Source: Veillonella atypica KON (lineage in GTDB: Bacteria > Bacillota > Negativicutes > Veillonellales > Veillonellaceae). Taken from it: a stretch of 64,000 nucleotides of DNA. The notes beneath the pieces are model-generated. The model saw only the letters and a list, made by a program, of their open reading frames with translations, had not been told where the DNA came from and ran no database searches. The stretch lies in assembly GCF_002959915.1 (NCBI RefSeq), contig NZ_PPDE01000003.1, positions 62,001 through 126,000 on the forward strand, given 5' to 3'. Made by a program: the position numbers and the translations under genes. Shown here piece by piece: positions 2,858 through 18,136 of this stretch (positions within the stretch are counted from its first letter, which is position 1; every line of letters begins with the position of its first letter).

Positions 2858-3446
2858 TTCTACGTAGCCGATTCGGTATGGGCGTCAATAGGTTGTTGGT
2901 ATAAGTACTACGTTGCCGGCGATGGATAAGTCTCCTTCAGCTCCAGCTAGCTTAACGGTCTTCGGCCTAGGGCCTCGACCTACTAAAGTCGCTTCAGAAG
3001 GCTTATCCATCGCCTACAATAGTAGATACTGAATGTACAATGGTTACCTATTGAGACCCATCCCTCACCTACTGTAGATTTCTTTAAACAACCGTAGCAC
3101 AAGGTTCCTTTAGCCCAGACTAGAGGAGAATCGTCATCGGCCTAGGGCCTCGACTTACTAAAGTCGCTTCAGAAGGCTTATCCATTGCCTACTGTAGTAG
3201 ATTTTAGTCTCCAGCTAGTACAAGGTCCTTTAGCCTAGGTTAGAGGAAAACGGTCTTCGGCCTAGGGCCTCGACTTACTAAAGTCGCTTCAGAAGGCTTA
3301 TCCATTGCCTACTGTAGCGGATTTTAGCCTCCATCTAGTACAAGGTCCTTTAGCCTAGGTTAGAGGAAAACGGTCTTCGGGTTAGGGGCTCGATTTTGTA
3401 ATTGTAAATTGTGTTTTATATATTTTATGTGAAAAGGAGTGGTATT
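2858..3446. other. Non-coding gap with repeats, hemY to hemQ
   Basis: Nearly 590 bases without a credible gene. Most of it is filled by the repeat block described separately (2918-3395). The first 60 bases after hemY show no clear intrinsic terminator. The last 50 bases before hemQ are AT-rich and hold the ribosome site AAGGAG at 3434-3439. No tRNA or known riboswitch was recognised. Confidence 0.6.
2918..3395. repeat. Degenerate 120-bp tandem repeats with inverted arms
   Basis: A unit containing GGCCTAGGGCCTCGAC, then an imperfect hairpin around CGACTTACTAAAGTCG, then CTTCAGAAGGCTTATCCAT occurs at about 2956-3025, 3131-3200 and 3251-3320; a broken fourth copy starts at about 3361. The last copies have an exact 120-base period (3121, 3241 and 3361 are in register). 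The first is 175 bases before the second. Bases 2918-2930 (GGCGATGGATAAG) are the perfect reverse complement of 3002-3014, so the first unit is bounded by an inverted arm. CGACTT/AAGTCG forms a 6-bp stem with a 4-base loop in each unit. No open frame runs through it. It looks like an intergenic repeat family rather than a CRISPR, because units are adjacent without unique spacers. Confidence 0.75.
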
Positions 3447-7500: not shown

Positions 7501-9119
7501 GTAAGGCTCGTCACTCCACACCAGGTGTAGAACTTGTTTCTCCTCCACCACATCATGATATTTACTCCATCGAAGACTTGGCGGAATTAATTTACGATTT
7601 GAAATGCGTCAATAAAGATGCTCGCATTTCCGTTAAATTGACTTCCGAAGCTGGCGTTGGTACAATCGCAGCTGGTGTGGCGAAAGCAAAAGCAGATAAT
7701 ATCTTGATTTCCGGTTATGACGGCGGTACAGGTGCGGCTGGTCGTACATCTGTAAAACATGCTGGTGTGCCTTGGGAACTTGGTTTATCTGAAACTCATC
7801 AAACATTGATGCTCAACCGTTTGCGTGACCGCGTTCAATTAGAGGTAGACTCTAAATTGATGACTGGTTTCGACGTAGCTGTTGCGGCTATGCTTGGTGC
7901 TGAGTTGTTTGGTTTCGGTACATTACCACTTGTAGCTGTAGGCTGTAAAATGGCTCGTGTATGTAACCTCAATACATGCCCTTATGGCGTGGCTACACAA
8001 GATGAAAAATTACGTGCTCGTTTCAACGGCAAACCTGAATATGTAGAAAACTTGATGATCTTCATTGCACGTGAATTGCGTGAAATCATGGCTCGCTTAG
8101 GCATCCGTTCCGTAGCTGAACTCGTTGGCCGTATCGATCTGGTTCGTCAAAAATCTCAAGACGATAACTTCAAATTGTCTCGTGTCGATTTGAAACGTAT
8201 CTTGTTCCATCCATACATCGATGCGTCTGTTGGTCATATGCATACCATCGATCAAGATCATGAATTAGAACGCACATTGGATATGTCCAAACTCTTGCGT
8301 ATGTGCCGTCCTGCTATCGAAGATCAAAAACCTATTCGCGCTAAATTGGCTATCAACAACATTAACCGTGTAGTAGGTACATTAGTTGGTTCTGAGGTAA
8401 CACGTCGTTATGGTGAAAGCGGACTTCCAGATAACACAATTAAGTTGAACTTTGAAGGTTCTGCAGGTCAATCCTTTGGTGCTTTCATTCCAAAAGGCAT
8501 GACATTAGAACTCGAAGGGGATGCGAATGACTACCTCGGTAAAGGTTTATCCGGCGGTACCATCGTTGTTTACCCTCCTAAGAAATCTATTTTTGAAGCT
8601 GATGAAAACATTCTTATCGGCAACGTTGCCTTCTATGGTGCTACATCTGGTAAATCCTATATCAATGGTGTAGCTGGTGAACGTTTCGCTGTTCGTAACA
8701 GTGGTATTACAGCTGTTGTGGAAGGTGTAGGCGACCATGGTTGTGAATACATGACAGGTGGCGAGGTTCTTGTACTCGGTAAAATTGGTCGTAACTTCGC
8801 AGCCGGTATGTCCGGTGGCTATGCGTACATCCTCGATTGCGATGAACGTTATGTAAATACTGGTCTTGTAGAATTACGTCCTGCTAATAATGATGACCTT
8901 AAACGAATCAAAGAATTAGTCGAACAACATGTATTGCATACTAATTCCACAAAAGGCCGTCATATCCTTGAAAACTGGAATAACTTTGCAAATAGATTTA
9001 CTAAGGTTGTTCCTGTAGCATACGAAGAAATGCATGCTGCTATTGAACGATTCAAAGAACAAGGCTTGTCCTTAGAAGAAGCTCAATTGGCTGCATTTAA
9101 AGAAAAATATGCAAAATAA
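4536..9119 (+). CDS. gltB: Glutamate synthase large (alpha) subunit
   Basis: 1527-residue GOGAT alpha chain. A class II glutamine amidotransferase domain starts at Cys33 (DACGMGFVV), so a 32-residue propeptide would be removed to expose the nucleophile. A central domain follows, then the FMN-binding barrel (GYDGGTGAAGRTS) and the 3Fe-4S motif CKMARVCNLNTCPYGVATQ at about 1137-1155. The C-terminal GXGXG beta-helix is also present. It transfers the glutamine amide to 2-oxoglutarate, giving two glutamates. I place the start at ATG 4536 because AAGGAG lies 11 bases before it; upstream in-frame starts lack a site. No gltD (small, NAD(P)H-oxidising subunit) lies next to it, which is unusual. The gene ends in the terminator at 9158-9190. 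Confidence 0.97.
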   Translation: MEMNGSVIDQQRLDQARLEANGMYSSQFEKDACGMGFVVNIKGKKSHDIIDDGLRILERLEHRGGAGADKDTGDGAGILVQIPHEFFKRECEVLGISLPAAGEYGVGMIFAHKYESLRNEQKRIFEEVVREEGQVVLGWREVPVDGTKVGKEAAAIRPWMIQILIGKGPDVTNNAEFERKLYVIRKLAEKRIIPLSKELSSDFYIASLSSKTIVYKGMLTPGQLRDFYLDLSDLDFTSALAMVHSRFSTNTFPSWARAHPNRFLVHNGEINTIRGNVNWINAREGKAESPLFPDIKKVFPVVDDSGSDSAMFDNTLEFLHMTGRSLPHAIMMMIPEPWERNKLMSQEKHDFYEFNSFMMEPWDGPAAMGFTDGTVIGGVLDRNGLRPARYYVTTDDRVIMASEVGVVNENAENIRAKGRLEPGKMLLIDTEEQRIISDEEIKQRVATELPYNEWVKEHVIHLSEITQADESDIPKVEDLFQKQQAFGYTQEDLVRMIVPMAKDGKDPVGAMGADAPLAILSDKPQLLYSYFKQMFAQVTNPPIDSIREEMVTSTRVMLGNSGNLTDPNKAGTYALSMRTPILTNQELASIKALDCRRMKSVTLPILFNPTKGADGLRDALNELCEKAEEAARTEQNVLILSDRGVDENHAPIPALLAVAAVHNHLIRKVLRTEIGLILESGEPREVHHFCTLIGYGVTAINPYLALETVRDLQARKRLGDITPEQAEKNYIKAAVGGIMKVMSKMGISTVRSYHGAQIFEALGLNTNFINKFFVNTPTRIGGIGLVGVANEALARYDRAFKSDESVLEPGGWYGPVKDGEEHLFNPKTIDLLQESLINGDYAKYKEYSKAIRNDYHVTLRSLMELNYPVGGGIPIEEVEPEESIVKRFKAGAMSYGAISKEAHETIAIAMNRLGSTSNSGEGGEDSARFKPLPNGDSMNSEVKQIASGRFGVTANYLIHAKELQIKCAQGAKPGEGGQLPGKKVYPEIGKARHSTPGVELVSPPPHHDIYSIEDLAELIYDLKCVNKDARISVKLTSEAGVGTIAAGVAKAKADNILISGYDGGTGAAGRTSVKHAGVPWELGLSETHQTLMLNRLRDRVQLEVDSKLMTGFDVAVAAMLGAELFGFGTLPLVAVGCKMARVCNLNTCPYGVATQDEKLRARFNGKPEYVENLMIFIARELREIMARLGIRSVAELVGRIDLVRQKSQDDNFKLSRVDLKRILFHPYIDASVGHMHTIDQDHELERTLDMSKLLRMCRPAIEDQKPIRAKLAINNINRVVGTLVGSEVTRRYGESGLPDNTIKLNFEGSAGQSFGAFIPKGMTLELEGDANDYLGKGLSGGTIVVYPPKKSIFEADENILIGNVAFYGATSGKSYINGVAGERFAVRNSGITAVVEGVGDHGCEYMTGGEVLVLGKIGRNFAAGMSGGYAYILDCDERYVNTGLVELRPANNDDLKRIKELVEQHVLHTNSTKGRHILENWNNFANRFTKVVPVAYEEMHAAIERFKEQGLSLEEAQLAAFKEKYAK

Positions 9120-13200: not shown

Positions 13201-15786
13201 ATGGTTATCAATAGCGAACAACAACGCGTCATCGATGAACTAGATAGAAATATCCTCTTGTTGGCGTCCGCTGGGACGGGAAAAACGAATACACTGGCTT
13301 ATCGAGTGGCCCATATTATTGAAAGTGGCCGCTGCGAGGCTCATCAGATTTTGTGCATGACCTTTACCAATAAGGCGGCACAAGAGATGAAGTCGCGCAT
13401 CGAATCCCTCGTTGGCCAACCTGCAAAGGCTGTGGAGATTAGTACGTTCCACAGCTTTTGTTTTTACGTTCTTCAACAAGAGGGCAAGCGAGATGAGTCG
13501 CTCTATACAGATGTGACCATATTTGATGAAGAGGATTGTAAAGAACTATATTTGCCATATAAACCGAGAAATATGCGGGATATGAACTTTGCTAGCCTTA
13601 TAAGCCTGGTAAAGGAATATCGTTCTGTGTATGAATTCTATTCTGAATCGTTGATAGATGATTACAAACGAACGATACAACGTTTAGAGCGGGAGCAATC
13701 TAAGCAAATAGAGAAATTATTTTACAATTACAATACTCTTGCTACTGAGGACTTGTCGGACTTTTGGGCGCATGGTCATGAATGGATTGCTCGTTATGAT
13801 GAAAGTTTACAATCTGTTCACGGCGTTGATTTTACTGATTTAATCTGTGGTGTGCATCGACTATTTCAAAATCCAGATATTCGAGAACGGTGGCGCAGTC
13901 GTTATCAGTATATTTCCGTTGATGAAATGCAAGATACGGGCTCATTAGAATATAAGGTTATGGAAATGCTATGGGAAGGCAATCACGTTCTTTTATGTGG
14001 CGACTATTTCCAAACTATCTACGAATGGCGCGGCTCAGATCCGTTCCGTTTATTAGAGGCATTTACCCGTGATTTTAATCCTCTAAAAATCATATTCTAT
14101 AAAAACTATCGCTCCAACCGTACTTTGTTCACGATGGCTTTCAAAACATTGCAGAACATGTTTCCTCAACTGGTAGGCGATGTATATGATGAAATGCCAG
14201 AGGCCAACAGTGCTAGTGATGGGGCACCTATCCTTGTGAAAGGTTGTCGCAATGAATATACGGAATCAAAATTTATTTATGACCGTATTTGCGCGCTTCC
14301 AAAGGATGCATCTATCGGTGTGTTGGTTCGCGATAATCGCAAGGCACAGCGTTTAAGTGAACAGTTTGAACGATATAATCAAGATAAGCCAGAATCTGAG
14401 CGTCGTCCGTTTATGATTATTGATGAATATAAATTCTTCCGCCGTCAGGAAATCAAGGATATCATGGCGTACTTTAAGCTCTTGATGAATCCTAATGATG
14501 CGGTTAGTGCAAAACGCATTATTAAACGCTATGTATCGGGCATTGGCGACGCGCGTATTCGCGATATTGAAAGTCCAAAAAATCGCAGAGTAGGGTTAAA
14601 ATTGACGGATTTTATGGATATGCCCATCTTTGAAGCCGAGCCATATGCCAAATTGGTAGCTGGTCTTGAGGTGGGTGAAGTGGTGGTGTACGATGTAGAA
14701 AGCACTGGTACTGATACGACACAAGATAGAATTATACAAATTGCAGCGATGCGCATTGATAAAGATGGCAATGAAATAGAACGGTTTGAACGTTTTATCA
14801 ATCCTGGTAAATCGGTAGGCACATCTCAACTTGTTCATGGTTTTTCAGATGAATATTTAGCAGAGCATGGTGAAAGCCCTGAAGTTGTATTAGAGGCTTT
14901 CAAAGAATTTTCTAACAATCGTATCATTGTAGGTCATAATGTAAATTATGACATTAGCATTTTGAGCCATGAATTAGCGCGCCATAATTTAGGCGAGCCT
15001 CAATTTAAGGCCGTATATGATACATTAGATATCTTTAGACGGTTCTATCCAACACTGGAAAATCATAAGTTAGGATTTTTATCAAAATATTTTCCTATTA
15101 ATCATACGCCTACCCATAATGCGATGGATGATATTATTGCTACGGGCCAATTATTAACCTACGCAGTCCGTGAAAATATTGTGCCCACAACGACAGATCG
15201 CATGGTAGCCATTAATCAATATAAGGCGGCTTTCACAACGATTGCGTCTCAAATGGCAACCTTGCGCAGAAAGATGCATACCGATAATCCTACGGAATTA
15301 TTGGCCTATATTATGAATCAAATGGGCGTACTAGACTATTATAAGAGTCATGGCGAAATGGCCAAGGTTGAACATATACGAGATTTGTATCGTATTATGG
15401 AATCATTAGATAAGGAATATGAAGGTACAACGGGATTAGCTCGTCTCAATCATATTTTGCAATTAGCTGCCTTGACGGCTGGTGAGCCACAACAGATGAG
15501 TAAACAATCTAAGATACCGATTATTACGGTTCATCAAGCAAAGGGGAGTGAGTTTGACCATGTATTTTTGGCGGGTATGAATCAAGGGACCTTCCCTAGT
15601 TTTATGTCCTTACGCGAGGGCAATGAGGATGAAGAAAAACGCTTGTTCTATGTGGCCATTACGCGACCAAAACAGGAGCTGGTTATTACCTATACCAATG
15701 AATCACAACGGGGCCAAGGCACAGCGCCAAGTGCATTCCTTGATTATATGCCAAGGGATGTAAAACTCGTAGAAAGGAGTATGTAA
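13201..15786 (+). CDS. UvrD-type helicase with embedded DEDDh exonuclease
   Basis: 861 residues. Superfamily 1 helicase motifs: I ASAGTGKTNT (about 22-31), Ia FTNKAAQEM, II ISVDEMQDTG, III GDYFQTIYEWRGSDP, IV YKNYRSNRTL, V VHQAKGSEFDHVF, VI FYVAITRPKQ. Between IV and V, residues about 493-655, sits a complete DnaQ-like 3'-5' exonuclease: Exo I VYDVESTGTD, Exo II GHNVNYDIS, Exo III HNAMDDIIATG. So unwinding and 3' trimming are joined in one cytosolic chain, probably for repair. ATG 13201 follows GGAGAGG. The stop overlaps the next start (TAATG). The family is related to PcrA/UvrD but shorter at the C terminus. Confidence 0.9.
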   Translation: MVINSEQQRVIDELDRNILLLASAGTGKTNTLAYRVAHIIESGRCEAHQILCMTFTNKAAQEMKSRIESLVGQPAKAVEISTFHSFCFYVLQQEGKRDESLYTDVTIFDEEDCKELYLPYKPRNMRDMNFASLISLVKEYRSVYEFYSESLIDDYKRTIQRLEREQSKQIEKLFYNYNTLATEDLSDFWAHGHEWIARYDESLQSVHGVDFTDLICGVHRLFQNPDIRERWRSRYQYISVDEMQDTGSLEYKVMEMLWEGNHVLLCGDYFQTIYEWRGSDPFRLLEAFTRDFNPLKIIFYKNYRSNRTLFTMAFKTLQNMFPQLVGDVYDEMPEANSASDGAPILVKGCRNEYTESKFIYDRICALPKDASIGVLVRDNRKAQRLSEQFERYNQDKPESERRPFMIIDEYKFFRRQEIKDIMAYFKLLMNPNDAVSAKRIIKRYVSGIGDARIRDIESPKNRRVGLKLTDFMDMPIFEAEPYAKLVAGLEVGEVVVYDVESTGTDTTQDRIIQIAAMRIDKDGNEIERFERFINPGKSVGTSQLVHGFSDEYLAEHGESPEVVLEAFKEFSNNRIIVGHNVNYDISILSHELARHNLGEPQFKAVYDTLDIFRRFYPTLENHKLGFLSKYFPINHTPTHNAMDDIIATGQLLTYAVRENIVPTTTDRMVAINQYKAAFTTIASQMATLRRKMHTDNPTELLAYIMNQMGVLDYYKSHGEMAKVEHIRDLYRIMESLDKEYEGTTGLARLNHILQLAALTAGEPQQMSKQSKIPIITVHQAKGSEFDHVFLAGMNQGTFPSFMSLREGNEDEEKRLFYVAITRPKQELVITYTNESQRGQGTAPSAFLDYMPRDVKLVERSM

Positions 15787-16793
15787 TGGCACGAAAAACG
15801 CATAGACCAGATGATATTATTTGGCCAGTTACTACCCAGGATATAGAATCCATACAACATGCAAATACAGATGCGATAACATTAGGGCAACTGTTAGATA
15901 CTAAATATCCAAGAAAAGCGATGGTAAAGTTATTTGATGAGAAATTAATCCATGTAAATGGTCATAAAGCAACACCTCATACAGAGGTTGCCGTAGATGA
16001 TGAAATTTGGATAGCTATGGCCAAAGAGAAGATTGATTATGAGCCAATTGCAATGGATTTACATATTCTCTATGAAGATGACGATTTGCTCATTGTGGAT
16101 AAGCCTGCCGGTGTTACGGTAAACTCAAAAGATCAAGTATCCCTTGCTAATGGCATTGCCCATTATTTTATGAAACATGGTATTAAGCGAAAAGTACGTT
16201 TTTTGAACCGTCTTGACCGCGATACAACAGGCTGTATTGTAATTGCTAAAAGCGGTCTAGCCCAAAGCTTATATCAACAACAAATGGATGATAACACATT
16301 TGAAAAGTGGTACATGGCTATTGTTGAAGGCCTTGTCGAATCAGATTCGGATTCGTTGGTGCTTCCTATGGATAGAAGTATTGATGGCATTCATTACGAA
16401 GTAAATTCTAAGGGGAAAGAAACACGGACTGATTTTACCGTTTTACACCGATATCCGTATGGGGCTGTGGATAACTCTGTGCATAACCTACAAAATATTG
16501 TGGATATATCCCATGAAAATGTGGACAGCACAGTGAATACTGTGGATAAACAGGGTGGAATTGTGGATAATTCTGTGCATAACTTAGAAAATCAGCCTTG
16601 TACAGCAGTGGCAGTTCGCTTATATACAGGTAAAACACATCAAATTCGAGTGGCCTTCAGTCATATAGGTCATCCTTTGTTAGGGGATACATTGTATGGG
16701 GCGAAATCTACGGGAGAACCATTTGCACTACGTGCAATGAAGGTTGTTTTTACACATATGCGTTCTGGAGACCGTATAACCGTTCAAGCTTAA
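15786..16793 (+). CDS. RluA-family pseudouridine synthase with inserted loop
   Basis: 335 residues. N-terminal S4-like region (residues about 30-85, KAMVKLFDEKLIHVNGHKA), then the synthase domain with the catalytic-Asp motif LNRLDRDTTGCIVIAKSG near 140 and YTGKTHQIRVAFSHIGHPLLGD near 280. It isomerises uridine in rRNA or tRNA; which site cannot be told. Oddity: residues about 226-269 form an insertion between HRYPY and the strand before TGKTHQIR, a surface turn in family members. The insertion is made of V-D-N, V-D-K and V-H-N motifs. Its DNA carries an array of DnaA boxes (see 16466-16582), and all its Val codons are GTG. Coupled to the helicase gene by TAATG. Confidence 0.9.
   Translation: MARKTHRPDDIIWPVTTQDIESIQHANTDAITLGQLLDTKYPRKAMVKLFDEKLIHVNGHKATPHTEVAVDDEIWIAMAKEKIDYEPIAMDLHILYEDDDLLIVDKPAGVTVNSKDQVSLANGIAHYFMKHGIKRKVRFLNRLDRDTTGCIVIAKSGLAQSLYQQQMDDNTFEKWYMAIVEGLVESDSDSLVLPMDRSIDGIHYEVNSKGKETRTDFTVLHRYPYGAVDNSVHNLQNIVDISHENVDSTVNTVDKQGGIVDNSVHNLENQPCTAVAVRLYTGKTHQIRVAFSHIGHPLLGDTLYGAKSTGEPFALRAMKVVFTHMRSGDRITVQA
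16466..16582 (-). promoter_or_regulatory. Phased cluster of DnaA boxes inside a gene
   Basis: On the minus strand the 9-mer TTATCCACA occurs perfectly three times (plus-strand positions 16466-16474, 16541-16549, 16562-16570). TTATGCACA, which fits the TTWTNCACA consensus, occurs twice (16478-16486, 16574-16582). Near-matches lie at 16499-16507 (one mismatch) and 16520-16528 (two mismatches). Start-to-start spacings are 12, 21, 21, 21, 21, 12, mirror-symmetric and close to two helical turns. All boxes point the same way. DnaA binding is inferred only from sequence. Confidence 0.6.
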
Positions 16794-17011: not shown

Positions 17012-18136
17012 ATGATTTTACAAGATAATAGTGCTGAACGTAATCGGGGTATTACGCTCGCCAGTATCAAGGGTATTATAGGCAATGTGGTGCTTGTCAT
17101 TTTTAAGATGATAATAGGATTGGCATCGAATTCCATCGCCATAATCCTTGATGCAGTAAATAACTTAACAGACGTTCTTTCGTCGGTGTTGACGATTGTC
17201 GGTACAAAACTGGCTGCAAAAGGGGCCGATAAGGAACATCCATTTGGACATGGCCGTATAGAATATATGACTACCATGGCCATTGCTTTCATCATTCTCG
17301 GTGCAGGCATTGGGTCCCTTAAGGAATCGATAGATAAAATTCTTTATCCAGAGGTATCCACATTTGATATTCCAAGCCTTGCCATCATCGCGGTGGCCAT
17401 TATCGTAAAGGTTGTGATGGGGCGATACATTAAATCTCAAGGTGAGAAATACAAATCGGATGCCCTTGTAGCGTCTGGTATTGATGCTCTTTTTGATGCG
17501 GTGATTACCTTTGCTACATTGGTGTCTGCAGGCCTCGTATATTTCTTTAATGTAGATATTCAAGGCTATGTAGGGGCTTTAATTTCGCTATTAATTTTGA
17601 AAGCAGCCTATGAAATCTTGCGGGATATGTATAATCATTTGCTTGGTATTCGCGCCGATGATGATCTTATCCGAAACATCAAAGAAACTATCGCACAACA
17701 TCCAAATGTAGGCGGTGTATATGACTTAGTGCTAAATAGCTATGGACCAGGTGAAGTGATTGGTTCTGTTCATATTTCGTTGCCAGATACGATGACAGTG
17801 GGCGAGGTTCATCCTTTAACTAAAGGCATTGCTGTTCATCTTTATAAAAAGTTTGGCATTAATATGACTGTCGGCGTATACGCAGAAAATCAACCAAGCG
17901 TAGAAGTTCTTGAAATCAAAAAAGCGCTTGATCAAGTTGTAAGTTTATATACTAATGTAGTACAAGTACATGCCTTCTACGTACGAGAAGATAAAAAGAT
18001 TATCTATTATGATATTATCTTTAACTTTGACGAAGAAGATCCACATGGTACATTAGAAAAGATTAAGGCGGAACTTCATAACCGTTATCCAGATTATACA
18101 CAATTTGCTATTGTGGATACGGATTTTAGTAATTAG
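17012..18136 (+). CDS. Cation diffusion facilitator family transporter
   Basis: 374 residues. Six membrane segments in the first about 210 residues and a cytoplasmic ferredoxin-like C-terminal domain typical of CDF exporters. Metal-site motifs: DAVNNLTD in TM2, KEHPFGHGRIEYM before TM3, SGIDALFDAVIT in TM5. CDF proteins exchange divalent metal (Zn, Mn, Fe or Co) for protons, moving metal out of the cell. The TM2 site starts with Asp where many zinc exporters have His, which fits the manganese-type branch, but substrate is inference. Start ATG 17012 follows AAGAGGTG. Ends in its own terminator. Confidence 0.92.
   Translation: MILQDNSAERNRGITLASIKGIIGNVVLVIFKMIIGLASNSIAIILDAVNNLTDVLSSVLTIVGTKLAAKGADKEHPFGHGRIEYMTTMAIAFIILGAGIGSLKESIDKILYPEVSTFDIPSLAIIAVAIIVKVVMGRYIKSQGEKYKSDALVASGIDALFDAVITFATLVSAGLVYFFNVDIQGYVGALISLLILKAAYEILRDMYNHLLGIRADDDLIRNIKETIAQHPNVGGVYDLVLNSYGPGEVIGSVHISLPDTMTVGEVHPLTKGIAVHLYKKFGINMTVGVYAENQPSVEVLEIKKALDQVVSLYTNVVQVHAFYVREDKKIIYYDIIFNFDEEDPHGTLEKIKAELHNRYPDYTQFAIVDTDFSN

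Follow-up and report, generated by a model that had tools for sequence, protein, structure and literature searches.

A phased array of DnaA-box-like sites inside an RluA-type pseudouridine synthase gene of Veillonella, a probable hidden replication-control site

Introduction

In Bacillus subtilis, six DnaA-box clusters (DBCs) are located outside oriC, and loss of all six leads to early initiation, as stated in two papers that cite Okumura 2012 (PMC5295017, PMC13220808). In Escherichia coli, datA is described as a DnaA-box cluster that restrains initiation and whose relative distance from oriC is kept among strains (PMC4585315, PMC5295017), as non-coding (PMC4585315, PMC12371093), and as requiring IHF and promoting the hydrolysis of DnaA-ATP (PMC5295017, PMC5835720). 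DARS1 and DARS2 are presented as chromosomal DnaA-box sites that tune DnaA activity (PMC5295017), and the high box density near the E. coli origin is reported to be conserved, with titration taking place on the chromosome (PMC12371093). In Campylobacter jejuni, oriC boxes are reported to lie in the 3' end of dnaA (PMC6052347). A survey of the literature at the level of titles and abstract openings, with most subscription papers out of reach, found no account of a DnaA-box array in an unrelated coding gene or of DnaA control in Veillonella.

Here, we describe an array of DnaA-box-like sites in Veillonella atypica KON, found in a 64,000-nucleotide stretch of contig NZ_PPDE01000003.1 (hereafter, the window). 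Like the B. subtilis DBCs, it consists of several DnaA boxes clustered away from dnaA and oriC. However, there is one array per genome, and it follows a strict 12/21-bp grid. Its host is a coding sequence. It resembles datA in being clustered and origin-proximal but differs in being coding, inside a 335-codon open reading frame (ORF). DARS1 and DARS2 are non-coding, regenerate DnaA-ATP, and involve IHF and Fis at DARS2; the Veillonella array is likened to them as a chromosomal DnaA-box site only. With C. jejuni it shares DnaA boxes with a possible replication role in a coding region, whereas the boxes there are beside the origin, in dnaA itself, and the Veillonella array is distant from the origin, in an unrelated gene.

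Results

Seven DnaA-box-like sites on a 12/21-bp grid

The host gene had been annotated as an RluA-type pseudouridine synthase gene, and its product indeed matches PF00849 (PseudoU_synth_2, E 1e-24). Our genus sample comprised 14 genomes, 13 of which contain an orthologue; NRLDRDT, which includes the RLD motif, is present in all 13. We take the Asp of this motif to be the catalytic residue of the enzyme. The array consists of seven sites on the minus strand (Table 1), with start spacings of 12-21-21-21-21-12, corresponding to steps of one and two helical turns. Three are TTATCCACA, two are TTATGCACA, and two are near boxes, so that five of the seven match TTATNCACA exactly; the coordinates, strand, and spacings agree with those of the initial annotation.

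Table 1. Coordinates of the host gene, the insertion, and the DnaA-box-like sites in the window
Feature	Position	Strand	Basis or remark
Host gene, encoding an RluA-type pseudouridine synthase of 335 aa in which the NRLDRDT and TGKTHQIR motifs are intact	15786..16793	+	ORF; PF00849
In-frame lineage-specific insertion, residues ~226-269, predicted disordered loop	16461..16592	+	Between strands 211-223 and 272-279
DnaA-box array, seven sites	16466..16582	-	Same grid in 12/13 genus orthologues
Box 1 TTATCCACA	16466..16474	-	
Box 2 TTATGCACA	16478..16486	-	GAG linker to box 1
Box 3 ATATCCACA, 1 mismatch	16499..16507	-	
Box 4 CTGTCCACA, 2 mismatches	16520..16528	-	One mismatch here in the other 11/11 array-bearing genomes
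Box 5 TTATCCACA	16541..16549	-	
Box 6 TTATCCACA	16562..16570	-	
Box 7 TTATGCACA	16574..16582	-	
Further exact TTATCCACA, in the IVDKP motif of the host gene	16094..16102	-	Membership in the element uncertain

The genome of the window (2,035,710 bases) contains 101 exact copies of TTATNCACA, compared with 95 copies of a reversed control, indicating that DnaA boxes are not enriched overall and that the clustering is the exceptional part. Under a Poisson model, the probability of at least five exact TTATNCACA in 117 bp is 5e-14, and approximately 1e-9 to 5e-9 such clusters are expected per genome.

The additional box in the IVDKP motif is exact in 10 of the 13 genus orthologues. One of these is L015, which lacks the array, and protein constraint may therefore explain its conservation. 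Exact boxes also occur outside rluA on the plus strand at 18094 and 18309; both were excluded as parts of the element, as V. denticariosi, V. caviae, and V. agrestimuris have no exact box outside rluA at the corresponding locus.

The AT fraction of the array (0.62) is close to those of its 200-bp flanks (0.61 and 0.57) and of the window (0.60), and that of the intergenic stretch beginning ~210 bp past the array is 0.76. No GC-skew switch was found over the 64 kb, the skew being positive in all 16 windows of 4 kb. A secondary replication origin was rejected because the skew does not switch across the 64 kb, although the AT-rich intergenic stretch ~210 bp away could provide an unwinding element.

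Two other features of the window were recorded. A UvrD-type helicase is encoded at 13201-15786, with an RNase_T/DEDDh exonuclease domain (residues 495-651) within its UvrD_C match (298-833), and a tandem repeat of 120 bp (2.5 copies, 91% matches) is located at 3095-3393.

Conservation of the array in the genus and family

The seven-place grid was recovered in 12 of the 13 genus orthologues. Among the 84 sites of these 12 genes, 48 match TTATNCACA exactly, 34 have one mismatch, and two have two mismatches. Variations of the grid were also observed. In L014, which is identical to V. caviae L071 over 1 kb, four places are imperfect and the third is followed 9 bp later by an extra box; V. agrestimuris L072 retains the left part of the grid and is missing the right end; and in seven species (L005-L011) an eighth box, TGTGGATAT, is read in another frame (Cys-Gly-Tyr). 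In L015, which is identical over 1 kb to V. montpellierensis L074, the gene is present and the array is absent, and no orthologue was found in genome G001 at E <= 1e-40. The element is therefore not needed genus-wide.

In three other genera of the family, all 14 orthologous genes examined lack the array and are free of exact boxes; their loop is either short or different in sequence. The putative element is restricted to one genus among the genomes searched. Several orthologues among L008-L014 contain a second insertion of variable length near residues 20-30, and that of L008 holds one TGTGGATAT.

Selection acts on the DNA of the boxes

The initial annotation had noted that every Val codon in residues 226-269 is GTG, and this holds for eight of eight. 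The same bias extends across the 12 species when read at the grid: 82 of 83 array Val codons are GTG (at one more place the codon is GGG, Gly), whereas outside the array only 75 of the gene's 300 are. The preceding codon ends in T in 82 of 84 cases, against 1409 of 3720, while encoding nine different residues. The five invariant Val columns in the array use one codon each, and the six elsewhere use two or three. Asp codons are not distinctive (GAT in 52/60 in the array versus 256/312 outside).

As the species are related, sequence counts are not independent events, and kinship was addressed by parsimony on a tree of 11 species inferred from the gene outside the array; L014, whose spacing displaces the alignment, was omitted. 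The 42 box-core positions (TGTG.AT) need only 4 changes in total, every one at a third position. For the 21 core third positions, these 4 changes compare with a mean of 43.6 for random third positions and a minimum of 19 in 100,000 draws. In the spacers, the mean over 66 positions is 2.15 changes (2.41, 2.32, and 1.73 at codon positions 1, 2, and 3). All three codon positions of the spacers thus evolve fast, and positions 1 and 2 faster than the rest of the gene.

At the level of sequence comparison, these codon and rate tests demonstrate purifying selection on the box DNA, with the encoded spacers evolving freely. They strongly support the selection at the DNA level that the initial annotation had suggested, since the box cores hardly change at synonymous sites and the peptide of the spacers is variable, and they reject its alternative of a simple amino-acid repeat (VDN/VHN). 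Boxes varying freely at synonymous sites over a conserved peptide, which would have told against selection on the DNA, are the opposite of what was observed: across the 12 genus orthologues with the array, the synonymous sites in the boxes are almost all kept.

In the AlphaFold model of the window's protein (mean pLDDT 84.8), residues 228-266 are the sole segment below 50, a low confidence that is partly due to the small number of insertion-bearing sequences in the model's alignment. The loop encoded by the array is probably a tolerated, disordered segment in a beta-hairpin of the enzyme.

Chromosomal position and known regulators of DnaA

The position of the locus relative to oriC, a point raised by the initial annotation, was determined in single-contig relatives. 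The gene is 253 kb from dnaA in G004, 208 kb in G009, and 249 kb in G012, and ~326 kb in G008 by coordinates. The locus is origin-proximal, roughly 0.2-0.33 Mb from dnaA, in all five such genomes, with G007 judged by its similar coordinate. In all five, the host gene sits to the same side of dnaA and on the opposite strand (minus, with dnaA on the plus strand), an arrangement in which the host gene would be co-directional with the replication fork. The conserved distance from oriC may simply reflect conserved gene order.

YabA (PF06156) was not detected at the cut-off in any of the 14 genus genomes; G006 alone gave a match below it, and the B. subtilis and Lactococcus lactis controls were positive. 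Hda (TIGR03420) likewise had no match at the cut-off in the 14 genomes, the best match being dnaA itself where dnaA was placed. The absence of a profile match is compatible with a divergent YabA or Hda.

DnaA as the likely reader of the array

The oriC of the window's genome resembles the array in both motif and spacing. With one-mismatch boxes included, spacings of 11, 11, 21, 22, 21, and 22 occur upstream of dnaA and of 12, 11, and 12 downstream, and oriC holds a ATATCCACA/TTATCCACA pair joined by GAG, with the same linker and 12-bp spacing as boxes 1 and 2. Just upstream of oriC, a 55-bp tandem repeat of 5.8 copies was also observed (L002 747-1066; G000:C11:186456-186775), in which CTATACACA, one mismatch from a DnaA box, is present in four of the five copies examined.

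A search of the 14 genus genomes for three TATNCACA at gaps of 1-30 gave 92 matches, overlapping ones included. Of these, 44 fall at dnaA and 48 in the array, and the reversed control gave none. Here, dnaA was placed by protein search in eight of the 14. DnaA motifs in the locus marked it in G002 and G005, and an adjoining long open frame matching the Hda profile did so in the remaining four. Apart from the dnaA region, no other locus of these genomes has three boxes on one strand at short gaps. In the wider family, the three-box search gave one control match (G025), and clusters also occur in other genera.

The strict pattern of three boxes at 21 bp matched 22 times in 10 of the 14 genus genomes, always in the array and with no control match; it is unmatched in the window's genome and in G002 because boxes are degenerate there. 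Class-wide, 17 of 380 genomes matched, 10 of them via the Veillonella array and the remaining seven with one match each, and one genome gave two control matches. No dnaA motif was found around the seven non-Veillonella matches, either in loci of 2.2-3 kb (7/7) or in larger stretches (six of the seven). A relaxed search in the genus of G134 gave matches in 7 of 16 genomes and control matches in two.

These searches also yielded sites in other Negativicutes genera. In L183 (G134:C10:24500-40500, at 8037-8151) and L184 (G130:C22, at 2047-2119), both of one such genus, minus-strand DnaA-box-like sites are spaced 21 and then 11 bp. They are flanked by an integrase-like ORF on one side and a short XRE-repressor-like ORF on the other, as labelled by reading the translations, with no dnaA motif in the stretch examined, and are possibly a mobile-element control region using DnaA boxes. 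L181 (G169:C1:210000-226000, at 8038-8287) has clustered DnaA boxes pointing either way, some of them 21 or 12 bp apart. The site is not covered by any open frame of 100 aa, and no dnaA motif is present in the 16 kb; this may be a classical DnaA-box cluster.

Domain IV of the Veillonella DnaA aligns to the DnaA chains 8btg and 1j1v, and the PRQ and DHTT motifs, presumably the box-contacting residues, are common to them. Taken together, the motif and spacings shared with oriC, the confinement of three-box matches to dnaA and the array, and the domain IV alignment suggest that DnaA is the likely reader of the array.

Discussion

The selection on box DNA and the likeness to oriC argue that the array is, with high confidence, a DnaA-binding cis element. 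That it acts on replication initiation is likely, and the sign of this effect leans slightly toward the negative. We favor, as the quite probable explanation of the insertion as a whole, a DnaA-binding element that acts in cis from within a coding gene and modulates initiation in the manner of datA or the B. subtilis clusters; the host gene probably carries a hidden replication-control site.

Alternatively, DnaA could act as a transcription factor, with the array serving as a roadblock or regulator in a helicase-rluA-transporter cluster and linking its expression to the DnaA level. Genes for the helicase, rluA, and a cation-efflux protein adjoin in this order in all 12 array-bearing genus loci, the 4 kb downstream in the array-less V. 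montpellierensis L074 contain no cation-efflux match, and DnaA works as a transcription factor at some B. subtilis regions (PMC4447404). However, 430 bp separate the end of the array from the transporter start, with no exact box in the intergenic stretch; seven phased sites would exceed the need of a regulator, and the oriC-like spacing is left unexplained. We regard this explanation as unlikely.

It is less likely still that the sites are maintained as targets of some other protein, or function at the mRNA level through the sense motif UGUGNAUAA. Selection at the DNA level names no reader by itself, and the sense strand is transcribed, but the motif and spacings match the oriC of the same genome, and the other three-box matches in the genus occur only at dnaA. 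The predicted RNA structure of the array is no better than those of shuffled sequences (z -1.0; 33 of 200 shuffles fold as well), and a role through mRNA structure was rejected for want of any signal.

A heptad repeat selected in the protein, with box-matching codons by accident, is highly improbable: Val-Asp pairs do recur every seven residues in 11 species (V-D-x5), but the frozen synonymous sites, the T-ending preceding codon, the fast spacer codon positions 1 and 2, and the predicted disorder of the loop reject it, and the 21-bp box array of L183, in a mechanically called 96-aa ORF of another Negativicutes genus, also reads as VDN/VDI heptads. There is equally little to commend a neutral remnant, copied for example from oriC or borne by a mobile element, inserted in frame and pending decay, which would suit the GAG-linked 12-bp pair at oriC and the 21-bp arrays beside integrase-like ORFs but not the strongly diverged spacers (2.15 steps per position) beside boxes with 4 steps over 42 core positions.

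If the array acts as a DnaA-binding control element, a mechanism can be proposed. DnaA would bind the sites head to tail on one helix face and form an ordered assembly like that on the oriC boxes of the same spacings. The locus would be duplicated early after initiation, and two copies of it would take DnaA away from oriC or alter the nucleotide state of DnaA. This withdrawal or inactivation would make re-initiation less likely, a negative control comparable to that of datA or a DnaA-box cluster. The initial annotation had envisaged a DnaA-titrating or replication-timing element. The selection on the DNA that it suggested is borne out and the locus is origin-proximal, but titration is doubtful: the array holds 5 of the 101 exact boxes and faces ~95 competitors, so that a purely stoichiometric sink is questionable and an ordered DnaA assembly is favored. 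The selected feature is probably the cluster and its phasing. More tentatively, and with the balance somewhat against it, this phased, gene-hosted platform with the spacing grammar of oriC could be a main brake on DnaA in a genus without a recognizable YabA or Hda.

The locus provides a clear comparative case in which selection maintains a chromosomal DnaA-box element within an unrelated protein-coding gene, the constraint on the DNA being evident at the codon level, where E. coli control sites of comparable kind are described as non-coding. It is also a warning that what looks like a lineage-specific "disordered insertion" of a protein may be an element of the DNA. In a genus without recognizable YabA or Hda, the array offers one compact target for how re-initiation is prevented. 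Because its 12/21-bp grid is fixed, the part that helical phasing plays in DnaA assembly can be tested directly at a site away from oriC. If the more tentative reading of a main brake is true, Veillonella would have a replication regulator written in the synonymous sites and disordered loop of a housekeeping enzyme.
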